A DNA stretch of 41,563 nt, from IMG/VR virus record IMGVR_UViG_3300019458_000058, positions 1-41,563 of that record. The stretch is one strand, 5' to 3'. Positions 2,559-40,682 of the stretch are shown here, piece by piece (the stretch's first letter is position 1; each line of letters begins with the position of its first letter). This stretch comes from a virus. Under the pieces are notes generated by a model, which saw nothing but the letters and a program-made list of their open reading frames with translations, did not search any database and was not told where the DNA came from. The translations under genes were made by a program, and so were the position numbers.

Positions 2559-3242
2559 ATGACCGACAATGCAATATCATTTGTAGATTTTACATGTTAT
2601 CGGGGGGATTATATTTCGAATCAAACGGCTTTAGTCGAGCGAGAGGATGATAGCGGCATTCAGATCATCATAATGTTGCGCGGAGCACTTCTTAGGGCCG
2701 TTGAGAGTGCTTCTCAAGAGTTTTTACACTTCACGGAATATGACCTTCAAGAGGCGATTAAACCGACCGATATAGATTGGGCTTTGAGACACAGGCTTTG
2801 GAGCCTGATCGCTAAATATCCCTCTGGCGAAATCGACAAAATAGAGGGGCCGATGGTCTATAATCAGATCTGTTGCGCGGCCCATTTTTATAATCGATTT
2901 CTAAAGGACCCGAGAAAAGTCGCTTGGTTTTTGCATCCGATCGAGGATGAGAAAAAGTATAATGCCGCATCTTTTCATTTTCTGGCCGTCAAGCTGCAAA
3001 ACTACATTCTGACCCAGCCGATCACCGCCGACAATTTGGGTGAATTTGTACGGCTTGCCAAATTCCTATCCGACCGAGCCTTTGGTCCGGTCATCCATAA
3101 ACTCGAAACCAAGAATTTGAATGTCAACGCCGAGGTCAAGTCCGAAAAGCCCCAGGACCGCGAAGGGCTTTTGGCCAAGATCAAAGAGCTTGAGGCTTCT
3201 TTAGAAAAGCAGACAAAAGAGATCGATGTCACGCCAGAGTAG
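2559..3242 (+). CDS. Putative terminase small subunit
   Basis: 227 residues, directly upstream of and overlapping the large terminase by 17 bp, where the small subunit (DNA recognition, packaging initiation) is expected. The sequence RFLKDPRKVAWFLHPIEDEK, followed by an all-helical segment and a conserved-looking HKLETKNLNVNAE near residue 185, resembles other phage small terminase-like proteins. The last 35 residues form a charged probable coiled coil. No helix-turn-helix is obvious at the N-terminus, so assignment rests mainly on context. The only ATG in frame lacks a clear Shine-Dalgarno; an in-frame TAG at 2535 rules out a longer start. Confidence 0.6.
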   Translation: MTDNAISFVDFTCYRGDYISNQTALVEREDDSGIQIIIMLRGALLRAVESASQEFLHFTEYDLQEAIKPTDIDWALRHRLWSLIAKYPSGEIDKIEGPMVYNQICCAAHFYNRFLKDPRKVAWFLHPIEDEKKYNAASFHFLAVKLQNYILTQPITADNLGEFVRLAKFLSDRAFGPVIHKLETKNLNVNAEVKSEKPQDREGLLAKIKELEASLEKQTKEIDVTPE

Positions 3243-4767
3243 TGAGGAGCGGCTTTTAAAAGAAAAGCTTAGGCTTTTAGAAAAGCGCGTGGCTCTTGAG
3301 AAGGGATTGCCGCATCTTTATGGATTTCCATGGTATAAGTGGGCTCGGCAAATTTTTGAGTCAACAAATAAGGAAATTTTCCTAACGTCCGCTAACCAGA
3401 TAGGAAAAAGCACGACCGCAATCAGAAAAAACATTCACTGGGCCACGGAAAAAGAATTGTGGAAAAAACTTTGGCCTGATTTATTCGAGGACCAGATTCC
3501 AAATCTTTTCTGGTATTTTTATCCAACTTTTCCAACTGCGACCACGGAGTTTGAGAAAAAGTGGATACCTCTTTTTTTACCTAGAAATAATTATGTGCGT
3601 GATCCCGTTTACGGTTGGGATGATGACTATGACAAAGGCGAGATCAGGGCCATTCATTTTAAATCAGGTGTGAGCATTCAATTTAAGACCTACGAGATGA
3701 AGCTTAAGAACATTCAAAGTGCATCGGTCTATATGGTTACCGCAGATGAGGAAATGCCGGTGCATTATTTGCCAGAGATCAAATCAAGGCTAAATTCCAC
3801 GGGCGGATATTTCTTAAATTGCTTTACCGCAACGATTGGTCAGCTTTATTGGGCGCAAACCATGGAGCCGACCTCAAAGCTTGATGAAAAGCATCCAAAT
3901 GCTTTAAAAATTCAAATCTCGCTTTATGATTCACAATATTATGAGGATGGCTCGCCATCGCCTTGGACTGCTGAGAAAATCGCAGCGGCCAGGGCCAATT
4001 GCCCGACTGAGGCCGAGGTGCAAAGGCGAATTTACGGAAAATTCGTCAAAGCGCACGGGCTTATGTATGAGTCTTTCAGCGCTGAGCACAATATGTCTGA
4101 TGCTCATCCGTTGCCGGCGAGTTGGTTTATTTATGCAGCAGTTGATCCTGGAAGCGGTGGGCAGAGTGGCCATCCGGCGGCAATTTTATTTCTAGCGGTG
4201 AGTCCTGACTACAAGCAGGGGAGAGTTTTTCGAGGCTGGCGAGGGGACGGGATATCAACGGCGGCGCCGGATATTTTGCAGAAGTATCAGGAGCTAAAAA
4301 AGGGTCTTATCATCACTCAACAGATTTACGATTGGGCAGCGAAGGATTTCTTCACCGTTGCTTCTCGAATTGGTGAGGGGTTTGCGCCAGCCGATAAGAA
4401 AAGAGAGACAGGTGTCGGGCTTGTGAACTCGTTATTTAAAAACCGCATGCTTAAGATTCAGCGCGGTGACCCTGAATTAGAAAAGCTTGTGCAAGAGCTT
4501 TCAACATTGGCCGTTGATCGGGATAAGCGCTCTTGTGCTGATGATCTGGTGGACTGCCTAAGGTATTGCGCTGCGGCAATCCCATGGGATTTTTCTGATA
4601 TTCACGGGACCATTGATATTGGGGATGATCTGGCAAAAGAGCGAGCGCCTAAAAAAGAGTTGACCGAGACTGAGAGGCGTCGAGAATGGTTTGAGGGAAA
4701 AGGTCTAGATGAGCAGACTGAGGTCGATGCGGAGTTTGCTTTTTGGAATGAAAACCTAGAAAGTTAA
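3226..4767 (+). CDS. terL: Terminase large subunit (ATPase and nuclease)
   Basis: 513 residues; the packaging motor. The ATPase domain has Walker A NQIGKST (about 57-63) and Walker B VTADEE (about 172-176, with D174 and E175/E176). The RNase H-like nuclease domain has AVDPGSGG with D307, a second acidic stretch YDWAAKDF, and DDLVDCLR with D439/D440/D443 as the third metal-binding region. A GAGATCG site precedes the ATG inside the end of the small-subunit-like gene. Length is normal for phage large terminases. The C-terminal 60 residues are highly charged, which may serve portal binding. Confidence 0.95.
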   Translation: MSRQSSEERLLKEKLRLLEKRVALEKGLPHLYGFPWYKWARQIFESTNKEIFLTSANQIGKSTTAIRKNIHWATEKELWKKLWPDLFEDQIPNLFWYFYPTFPTATTEFEKKWIPLFLPRNNYVRDPVYGWDDDYDKGEIRAIHFKSGVSIQFKTYEMKLKNIQSASVYMVTADEEMPVHYLPEIKSRLNSTGGYFLNCFTATIGQLYWAQTMEPTSKLDEKHPNALKIQISLYDSQYYEDGSPSPWTAEKIAAARANCPTEAEVQRRIYGKFVKAHGLMYESFSAEHNMSDAHPLPASWFIYAAVDPGSGGQSGHPAAILFLAVSPDYKQGRVFRGWRGDGISTAAPDILQKYQELKKGLIITQQIYDWAAKDFFTVASRIGEGFAPADKKRETGVGLVNSLFKNRMLKIQRGDPELEKLVQELSTLAVDRDKRSCADDLVDCLRYCAAAIPWDFSDIHGTIDIGDDLAKERAPKKELTETERRREWFEGKGLDEQTEVDAEFAFWNENLES

Positions 4768-4772
4768 AGTTG

Positions 4773-5078
4773 ATGTTCATCAGTACAGATGAATTATTAG
4801 AACTTATTAAAGCTTGTAAAGCCGCTCGCGCGACCAATTTGAAAATTGGCGATGTCGAGATAAGGTTTGCCGACCGTGAAAGGCGGCAGACTAAAGAAAA
4901 GGTGCGTGAAATCCCAATTCCCACGGCTAAAGAACTTTCAAGCGCAGAGGACGATGCGAGGATCAAGAATAATCTTGAACTCGTAGATGACGACGTGGCC
5001 ACGATGCACGTCGAGGACCCCTCTGAGTTTGAGAGACTTATTGTCGAGAGGGAATTAAAGGACCGTGCCCAAGCATAA
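4773..5078 (+). CDS. Small phage protein between terminase and portal, unknown function
   Basis: 101 residues, starting at the second codon of an overlapping TTG-ATG pair (MFISTDELLELI). The N-terminal 35 residues look like a short folded unit (ELIKACKAARATNLKIGDVE, then IRFADRE), followed by a charged helical tail. The gene starts 6 nt after the TerL stop and overlaps the portal start by 14 bp, so it belongs to the packaging operon. Small proteins at this position occur in other podovirus-like genomes. No role can be assigned. Confidence 0.75.
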   Translation: MFISTDELLELIKACKAARATNLKIGDVEIRFADRERRQTKEKVREIPIPTAKELSSAEDDARIKNNLELVDDDVATMHVEDPSEFERLIVERELKDRAQA

Positions 5079-7155
5079 AATTGATGATCTAAACCGAATT
5101 TATTCGGATGGTGAGCAGTGCGATCAGGATGTGTATGCGGAAATGCGTTCAAACGTCCTATTGGCGGCGGGCGAACATTATAACCGAAAACGCTCTGGAT
5201 GGTGGGACCGGATACGCGAATCAAGAGACATCTCAAATGAGCAAAAGCTAAGGCTTACTAAAAATCACATCCATAAAATCTCAAAGACCTACATCAACAA
5301 CATTGTCTCGCAATCCCCTGGCGTTATCCCCACACCCAATAACCCCAAAGAGCTGCAAGATCAAAAGGCCGCTGAGCTTAACCGATCAGTCTGGGAATTC
5401 GCCAAAGTTCAGCATCAGTTAAAAATTAAAACTCAAAGTGAGGCCAAGGATTACATTGAAATTGGCGAGGTCGCCTGCAAAATATTTTGGGACCCAAATG
5501 CTGGTAGATTTCTTGGCTATGAGCAAGAGCTTGACGAGGAAGGCTCACCGCTTGTCGATGAAAACGGCGAGCCTTTGCAGTCAGATAGAGCGGTGTTTAC
5601 GGGTGATCTCGTTTTTGAGCGTATATATGGTTTTAATTTAATCCGTGCCGCTGAAGCCAAGACAATGTCTGAGTCACCGTGGCTTTGCAACAGAAAGATG
5701 ATTCATCTTGATGATCTTAAGAAAATCGTCGGCGATGACCCGGAGAAGCAAAAGCATATCGTATCATCTCGCGATGAAACTTATTTTGTTTTTGATTCAT
5801 CAAGAAATTCCTATAACAAGGCCGATAATCAAGCTCTTTGGCGAGAGTTTTTCTTTAGGCCATGTTTGCTTTATCCAAACGGATATTTCTATATCGCTCT
5901 TAAAGACGCTATTTTATTTGAAGGGGAGCTTCCATTTGGCGTTTTCCCGATTGTCTATGAGGGCTTTGATGAGATCGCAACAACTCCTCGCCACCGAAGT
6001 ATCATCAAGCAATTAAGGCCCTATCAGGTTGAGATTAACAGATCAAGCTCCAAGATTGCCGAGCATCAGGTCACTTTGGGTGATGACAAGATCATTTTGC
6101 AAAACGGATCTAAGATGACCTCTGGTCCGCATGCGCCTGGGATTAGAACCCTGATGGTCACGGGGCAGCAGCCAACGGTTTTAGAGGGTCGCACTGGGTC
6201 TCAATACCTTGATTACGTAAATTCGCAAATTGCTGAGATGTATCAGGTCGCAAACGTGGCCGAGGACTCTCAGGAAAAAGAAGGTGGAGATCCTTTCGTT
6301 AATCTTTATAAGGCCGTGAAGGATAAAAAGAAGTTTTCTATTTATGCAGAGAAATTTGAAAATTATCAGATCAACAAGTGCAAGACATACCTTGAGCTTG
6401 CCAAGAACTACTTTGACGCCAATATGCTCATTCCGGCCATTGGGCGCAGTGAATATATCAATATTGAAGAGTTTAAGCGGGCTGAGCCATTATCCTATCA
6501 GATCAAGATTGAGCCAAACTCCGATGATACGACATCGCTTATGGGAAGGCATTTATCATTAAATTGGATTTTGCAATATGTTGGTCAAAACCTTCAGCGC
6601 GACGACATTGGAAAGCTTATTCGTCAGATGCCTTTTGCCAATCATGAGGAGTCATTCTCTGATCTTACGATTGATTACGACATGGCGACAAACATCATCT
6701 TGGCTCTTGATCGAGGTGATGTGCCGACACCGTCAAAGCAGGACAATGATCAATATATTTTAAAAAGGCTATCGAGCCGTCAAAAGCAAACTGACTACGC
6801 ACTTCTTAACCCACAGATTCGCGCCAACTATGACCAGATGATTGAGTATTATGAACAAATCTCGGCCGATAAGGCCGCGCAAATAAAAGCTGCGCAAAGT
6901 GATTTCATCCCGTCATCAGGCGCAATGATTAAAGTTGATTATTACATCCCAGATCCGAACAACAAAACAAGATCTATTCGAGCAACATTACCAGCGGAGT
7001 CCATTGATTGGCTGATCAAGCGCCTTGAGGAGCAGGGTTCGGCTCAGCAACAATTGGCTGGACAAACAACCTCGGTCCAAGCTGACATAGCAAGACTATT
7101 AATGAACGGGCAGCAAATGATGCCGTCCGGATTACCACAAGGGGGACTGCAATGA
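5065..7155 (+). CDS. Portal protein
   Basis: 696 residues, the size of podoviral (P22-like) portals, which form the dodecameric DNA channel at the capsid vertex. GTG start at 5065 with AAAGGA just upstream. The N-terminal region (KNHIHKISKTYINNIVSQSP) and the following IEIGEVACKIFWDP segment match the portal stem/wing pattern, and the position between terminase and scaffold is typical. The C-terminal 40 residues are rich in Gln, Gly and Met. A TGA/ATGA overlap joins it to the scaffold gene. Confidence 0.9.
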   Translation: MPKHKIDDLNRIYSDGEQCDQDVYAEMRSNVLLAAGEHYNRKRSGWWDRIRESRDISNEQKLRLTKNHIHKISKTYINNIVSQSPGVIPTPNNPKELQDQKAAELNRSVWEFAKVQHQLKIKTQSEAKDYIEIGEVACKIFWDPNAGRFLGYEQELDEEGSPLVDENGEPLQSDRAVFTGDLVFERIYGFNLIRAAEAKTMSESPWLCNRKMIHLDDLKKIVGDDPEKQKHIVSSRDETYFVFDSSRNSYNKADNQALWREFFFRPCLLYPNGYFYIALKDAILFEGELPFGVFPIVYEGFDEIATTPRHRSIIKQLRPYQVEINRSSSKIAEHQVTLGDDKIILQNGSKMTSGPHAPGIRTLMVTGQQPTVLEGRTGSQYLDYVNSQIAEMYQVANVAEDSQEKEGGDPFVNLYKAVKDKKKFSIYAEKFENYQINKCKTYLELAKNYFDANMLIPAIGRSEYINIEEFKRAEPLSYQIKIEPNSDDTTSLMGRHLSLNWILQYVGQNLQRDDIGKLIRQMPFANHEESFSDLTIDYDMATNIILALDRGDVPTPSKQDNDQYILKRLSSRQKQTDYALLNPQIRANYDQMIEYYEQISADKAAQIKAAQSDFIPSSGAMIKVDYYIPDPNNKTRSIRATLPAESIDWLIKRLEEQGSAQQQLAGQTTSVQADIARLLMNGQQMMPSGLPQGGLQ

Positions 7156-39827: not shown

Positions 39828-39863
39828 TTAGATTTTGAACTTTGGCTTTTTCTCGTCGGTCAT
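39828..39863 (-). CDS. Micro-ORF, 11 aa (second copy of MTDEKKP)
   Basis: ATG 39863 follows GAGGATAAA and encodes MTDEKKPKFKI, then TAA. Its first seven codons are identical to those of the micro-ORF at 40005-40040, within a perfect 22-bp direct repeat. It lies 1 nt after the stop of the 47-aa gene, so it is well placed for coupled translation. Leader peptide, tiny functional peptide, or relic of a duplicated gene start. Confidence 0.4.
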   Translation of the reverse strand: MTDEKKPKFKI

Positions 39864-39865
39864 TT
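39844..39865. repeat. 22-bp direct repeat, copy 1 (copy 2 at 40021-40042)
   Basis: Identical 22-bp sequence at 39844-39865 and 40021-40042, 177 bp apart, each encoding the start of a micro-ORF (MTDEKKP) on the minus strand. The 47-aa gene lies between the copies. Confidence 0.9.
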
Positions 39866-40008
39866 TATCCTCTTTCCACGCATTCAACGCTTCGGCATTT
39901 TCGACAACATCTAATCAACAAAGCGTGGCCATATTGATAGCAAAGCGTATCCCATTCAGTCCAATGGTGAAATCCAAACCGACAAAAAAGAAATGAGAAA
40001 ATGTTCAT
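39865..40008 (-). CDS. Small Cys/His-rich protein, 47 aa
   Basis: ATG 40008 has GCGAGG directly upstream and GGGGG further back, and overlaps the stop of the first micro-ORF (ATGA). Sequence MNIFSFLFCRFGFHHWTEWD, then LIRCCRKCRSVECVERG, with paired Cys suited to zinc binding and a short hydrophobic N-terminus. Function unknown. It sits exactly between the two copies of the 22-bp repeat, so gene and repeat may have been inserted together. Confidence 0.55.
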   Translation of the reverse strand: MNIFSFLFCRFGFHHWTEWDTLCYQYGHALLIRCCRKCRSVECVERG

Positions 40009-40040
40009 CCCTCGCCCCCAGGCTTTTTCTCGTCGGTCAT
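40005..40040 (-). CDS. Micro-ORF, 11 aa (first copy of MTDEKKP)
   Basis: ATG 40040 overlaps the TGA of the 76-aa gene and has GAGGCGG upstream; it encodes MTDEKKPGGEG and its TGA overlaps the next ATG. Both junctions are ATGA overlaps, which is what a genuinely translated short gene would show in this operon. Confidence 0.45.
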   Translation of the reverse strand: MTDEKKPGGEG

Positions 40041-40042
40041 TT
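40021..40042. repeat. 22-bp direct repeat, copy 2 (copy 1 at 39844-39865)
   Basis: Perfect copy of 39844-39865; covers the first seven codons of the micro-ORF at 40005-40040. Confidence 0.9.
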
Positions 40043-40267
40043 CGCCGCCTCATTAGGGCTGGATAGGTTACTAATTAATCTGCCTATTTGTTTCTGCTCT
40101 TGAGACCACGAGGCCTCTCCATCCATTTTTGGCTGTCTTGGTAAAATCTTTTTTAACTCATTAATAACCTCAGATTTTAGCAATACTGGTTCCACAAAGT
40201 TTCTATTCGCAAGCTTTAAATATTCGTCTGTGCGAAGCTGCTCTATCTGAACGTAGTATGTTTTCAT
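40037..40267 (-). CDS. Small phage protein, unknown function
   Basis: 76 residues from ATG 40267, with AGGGG 7 nt upstream (a GTG at 40312 would overlap the preceding zinc-ribbon extension). Sequence MKTYYVQIEQLRTDEYLKLA, then VINELKKILPRQPKMDGEAS and a helical end. No family recognised. The stop overlaps the first micro-ORF. Confidence 0.62.
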   Translation of the reverse strand: MKTYYVQIEQLRTDEYLKLANRNFVEPVLLKSEVINELKKILPRQPKMDGEASWSQEQKQIGRLISNLSSPNEAAK

Positions 40268-40277
40268 TTTGCTACCC

Positions 40278-40682
40278 CTACTGCATAAACTGAATGCATT
40301 TTTCCGTTTCACATTTAGCCCAAATGTGGCCGTTAATTTTTGCGATGTTAAAATGTAGCGGCTTTGCTCACTTCGGGCATTCCACTAATCCGCCGCTTGT
40401 GTTGTTTTCTTTGGCGTGTTTTCTAATCGCAGAAAACGCTTTCTCAATCAATACGAGATATTCTTTGAAATCTTTTTCCTGCTGTAAAATTTCCTCACGA
40501 GAAAATGGCGAGAGCTTTTCGCAGTTGGCAAGCGGCTGCTTTTTTATGGGGCTGTTGCCTGCGCACGGAAGCCTCGCCATCCATCCGAAGTCTGGTCCAC
40601 CGACAAGCTCTCGGTAATTGATCTCAGCCTTGCAAGAGGCGTTGTGAAGAGGCCCGTTAAAGTGTCTACATGTTTCTCTCAT
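40278..40682 (-). pseudogene. HFNG/zinc-ribbon phage protein interrupted by an in-frame TGA
   Basis: Codons 1-104 run from ATG 40682 (GGAGGAG 6 nt upstream): RETCRHFNGPLHNASCKAEI with Cys motifs, then a helical part ending GGLVECPK. A TGA follows (40370-40368), and the same frame stays open for 29 codons: AKPLHFNIAKINGHIWAKCE, TEKCIQFMQ, then TAG at 40280-40278, 10 nt before the next gene. Read through, the protein has CPKx...C....C, exactly the zinc-ribbon end of a phage family I recall, with the TGA where the second Cys of CPxC belongs (TGC or TGT to TGA is one change). Either a truncating mutation, a sequence error, or recoding. The 104-aa product (40368-40682) is the default translation. 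Confidence 0.7.

Follow-up and report, generated by a model that had tools for sequence, protein, structure and literature searches.

Does the in-frame TGA that occupies the second cysteine position of a CPxC zinc ribbon in a viral gene mark a truncated gene, an error in the record, or a codon read as an amino acid? The gene lies in a 41,563-base virus record, the whole of which was analyzed and is referred to as the window. Its gene content (a terminase, a Sak4-like annealing protein, a RecE-like exonuclease, a primase/helicase, and a tyrosine integrase) is that of a tailed phage. The terminase (3226-4767) has few relatives, namely 17 IMG/VR loci at 42–63% identity, and showed only 22% identity with Arthrobacter phages in the phage collection.

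The truncated ORF is located on the minus strand (40368..40682, start at 40682) and consists of 104 codons and the TGA. Its product begins with MRETCRHFNG and ends with GGLVECPK directly before the TGA at codon 105 (40370-40368), and it contains an N-terminal Cys cluster (C5, C17, C40, and C54), a helix-like linker, and the first ribbon Cys, C102. Past the TGA, this frame stays open for another 29 codons on the minus strand (40281..40367), encoding AKPLHFNIAKINGHIWAKCETEKCIQFMQ, up to a TAG (40280-40278). This continuation carries the rest of the zinc ribbon, with NGH at residues 117–119, C124, and C129, and ends with the usual C-terminus of the family (MQ). The TAG is where a full-length product of the family is expected to stop, as relatives end at the same alignment position. 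It is directly followed by the GGGG stretch that precedes the ATG (40267) of the next gene (40037..40267, minus strand), which encodes 76 aa and matches no known family; the gap between the TAG and this ATG is 10 nt. The full-length frame would probably run into the ribosome-binding region of the next gene. The positions of the TGA after GGLVECPK, the 29-residue continuation, the TAG, and the 10-nt gap were all as the earlier note had given them. An open stretch of 29 codons is unremarkable by itself (probability about 0.25 in random codons, by arithmetic). Re-initiation after the TGA was considered and rejected, as no in-frame start codon is present ahead of the last residues. Near this locus, a perfect 22-nt direct repeat, GGCTTTTTCTCGTCGGTCATTT, was found at 39844-39865 and 40021-40042, 177 nt apart. 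Its copies flank a small Cys-rich ORF on the minus strand (39865-40053), and on that strand each copy begins a start-like ATGACCGACGAGAAAAAGCC, which suggests a possible duplication or insertion among small genes.

The homology of the gene extended across the stop. phrog_31210 (PHROGs v4, function unknown, 66 positions) matched residues 100-133, spanning the TGA, with an E-value of 0.0011, and its match across the TGA reached 1.4e-5 in the search of the record. A ribbon profile built from relatives, from which the window was excluded, matched the window across the TGA at an E-value of about 1e-13; in this search the window was the only match with an internal stop. For the N-terminal half, a profile made from relatives gave a match at E 2.9e-16, and this half was also aligned to them. 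Furthermore, full-length relatives aligned to the window gene over 129–137 residues at about 34–36% identity, with E-values down to 3e-27 (35.7% over 129 residues for L103, 35.3% over 133 residues for L099, and 35.0% over 137 residues for L080), and this whole-length homology includes the N-terminal Cys cluster. The family cluster, C.HF...C...GG.D.GW..R.PC...C, is present in the window. All parts of the C-terminal ribbon, CPx[C]-(11)-NGH-(4)-CE(T)-(2-3)-C ending with M[QEM], are likewise found in the window frame except the second Cys, which is the TGA; this single break in the coding frame through the ribbon is unique among 76 distinct ribbons. Judged by these alignments, the window gene is a member of a phage family whose small product carries a cluster of Cys at the N-terminus and a four-Cys zinc ribbon at the C-terminus, the C-terminal part corresponding to phrog_31210. 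The fold could not be convincingly named from searches of Pfam and PDB. A zinc-stabilized nucleic-acid-binding or adaptor role would be a guess from the type of fold only.

A product ending at CPK could in principle be a natural form of the protein. This candidate was rejected: all N-terminal matches except one had the ribbon, and there were no homologues stopping at CPK and lacking a ribbon, which the earlier note had named as evidence against a TGA replacing Cys. The exception, L110, has another Cys-rich end. From about position 324 onwards, L110 encodes a stretch related to the N-terminal Cys cluster (E 3.9e-13) and, fused to it, a different C-terminal part (CPECGKDL...CPDGH), a ribbon-like end that the ribbon profile did not recognize; this arrangement hints that the two Cys-rich parts may be recombined. 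In L046 (about 4650-5100), two adjacent genes in different frames matched the N-terminal Cys-cluster profile (E 2e-34 and 3.9e-11), perhaps as a result of tandem duplication.

The codon used at the TGA column was investigated in the relatives. Single-protein searches found no close relative of the window gene in IMG/VR or phage records. Two degenerate patterns were too strict; a consensus ribbon query then reached Methylobacterium phage-like plasmids and others, and the proteins reached in this way had a Cys aligned to the TGA. A further 11 viral and 5 genomic loci came from an alignment-based scan. The gene was absent from the 12 records searched for it among the terminase relatives (17 loci), and among 398 sampled genomes of one phylum the family was detected only in the centre genome itself. 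A DNA pattern in which the surrounding motif was fixed and the codon left free gave 65 matches in 64 IMG/VR contigs, all of them family members, with TGC in 52 and TGT in 13. After these matches were combined with the other loci and duplicates were removed, 76 distinct ribbons were obtained, comprising 61 with TGC, 14 with TGT, and one, that of the window, with TGA. The earlier note had suggested a CPxC ribbon with its second Cys replaced and proposed aligning homologues at codon 105; the alignment bore this out, with Cys in 75/75 other distinct members. When the pattern required TGA and the surroundings were loosened, two matches appeared, both by chance and neither encoding the family. Hence, from the free-codon, ribbon-profile, and TGA-directed scans, we concluded that the TGA sits at what is, across the aligned members, a genuinely invariant Cys and is unshared.

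Such a pattern, with TGA exactly at a Cys column, is the classic one of Sec/Cys exchange, and it raises the question of whether the codon is decoded. TGA closes 21 of the 55 likely genes in the window; the genetic code is therefore standard, and genome-wide reassignment of TGA was ruled out. ARAGORN detected no tRNA genes in the record, so that it contains neither a tRNA-Sec nor a suppressor tRNA. Rfam gave no match in the record, and none for the local stretch even at an E-value of 10. The earlier note had proposed a possible weak stem downstream of the TGA that was not a clear SECIS. A weak hairpin was indeed predicted and it is not a clear SECIS, but its stability was no better than that of shuffled sequences (z −0.21, +0.24, and −0.09, in a shuffle test that is itself weak). 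As a control we used the SECIS of E. coli fdhF, the identity of which was confirmed; its z was only −0.91, indicating the weakness of the shuffle test, and thus the argument is carried by the absolute energy and by the lack of TGA-bearing relatives. At the same length, the fold energy was −4.4 kcal/mol for the window stretch and −14.2 kcal/mol for the fdhF element. A literature search at the level of titles and abstracts revealed no case of this kind.

These results bear on two forms of recoding. Insertion of selenocysteine, or dedicated insertion of Cys, at the TGA is very improbable despite the position of the codon: the structure is far weaker than that of fdhF, no parts of the Sec machinery were seen, and a TGA-bearing relative was found in none of the 75 other members (0/75), the directed scan having given chance matches only. 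In addition, the site presumably serves as a structural zinc ligand and not as a redox centre, and at a zinc ligand position Sec brings no obvious advantage. Low-efficiency read-through by near-cognate or suppressor decoding, which would yield mostly truncated and a little full-length product, is improbable. Basal UGA read-through is known in bacteria and the downstream frame is intact and homologous, but the TGA is conserved in no relative, no suppressor tRNA is present in the record, and nothing distinctive surrounds the stop, the structure there being weak. We likewise hold it quite improbable that the virus makes two proteins, one truncated and one full-length with the ribbon, by inserting Sec or Cys at this one UGA or by reading through it. 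Of the three options in the earlier note, a truncating mutation and a consensus error fit these data; the third, recoding, found no support from a TGA-bearing relative, a SECIS, an Rfam match, or a tRNA.

The condition of the tail was then considered with respect to the age and reality of the change. Beyond the TGA, the tail shows neither another stop nor a frameshift, and it retains NGH and the two later Cys. In a neutral simulation at 0.1 substitutions per site, approximately 20% of tails stayed this intact, or approximately 9% when indels were included. The intact tail and the simulation together suggest that the change is recent, or an error. An error or a minority variant may have been fixed in the metagenome consensus, with the virus population carrying an intact gene. 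We regard this as possible but rather unlikely. The record is a single contig of an uncultured virus, no near-identical copy that would confirm the TGA base was found in the collections, every relative is intact, and apart from this codon the window gene itself keeps its frame and all its ligands intact. On the other hand, no other internal stop was found in the 55 likely genes (a list chosen from open frames), so that the record is not generally error-ridden, and the divergence of the tail is somewhat higher than expected. Relative to its own N-terminal half, the window tail was the most diverged of 36 members tested, which weakly fits a relaxed constraint after truncation; this signal is confounded, as relatives were gathered by the tail pattern and the nearest relatives of the window rank just above it. 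The ribbon profile score of the window tail was the second lowest among members, a weak result subject to sampling bias.

On balance, we consider it probable that the TGA is a lone nonsense allele of an ordinary phage gene that removes the ribbon. One codon change would have turned the second ribbon Cys into TGA in this virus, and translation would stop there to give a 104-residue protein with the N-terminal part and no functional ribbon; the remaining 29 codons would be a remnant that is no longer translated but has so far escaped decay. What is directly observed is the coding frame, its homology extending over the stop, and the presence of Cys in this column in all other members; the reality of the base and the efficiency of termination are inferred. 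A nonsense allele fits a homologous frame that spans the TGA to the C-terminus of the family, the Cys found in all 75 others, the use of TGA as a usual terminator, the absence of recoding features, and the diverged tail. Against it, the ligands, NGH, frame, and end position are intact, and no clear sign of decay is seen outside one codon, which equally fits a consensus error. The family is known but uncharacterized, and in one member, that of the window, there is either a lone nonsense change or an error of the consensus.

A real change would leave a protein of 104 residues with an incomplete ribbon. Because the usual stop lies directly before the GGGG of the next gene, early termination would leave ribosomes approximately 90 nt farther from the next start, and translational coupling might weaken. 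The ordinary reading matters little, hinting that the ribbon is perhaps dispensable in this virus or that the record is in error; as a useful by-product, a broad family of phage proteins built from two Cys-rich parts is described. True decoding of the TGA would represent a rare case of recoding in a phage, located at a structural zinc ligand, but no support for it was found.

Compared with known systems, the window gene resembles bacterial selenoprotein genes such as E. coli fdhF in having an in-frame TGA where relatives have Cys, but it differs from those with a SECIS in that no comparable stem-loop, Sec machinery, or other TGA-bearing member was seen. The same C-terminal ribbon, CPxC-11 residues-NGH-C-C, occurs in uncharacterized phage and prophage proteins (e.g. 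L103, L098, L080, L099, and L157) and in Methylobacterium plasmid genes (L020-L022), and the viral relatives also share the N-terminal CxHF...C...PC...C cluster; unlike in the window, all of their frames are intact. For phrog_31210, the C-terminal half matches both the window ribbon, spanning the TGA, and each of the 14 members of the family alignment; where the window has TGA, members of phrog_31210 have a Cys codon.
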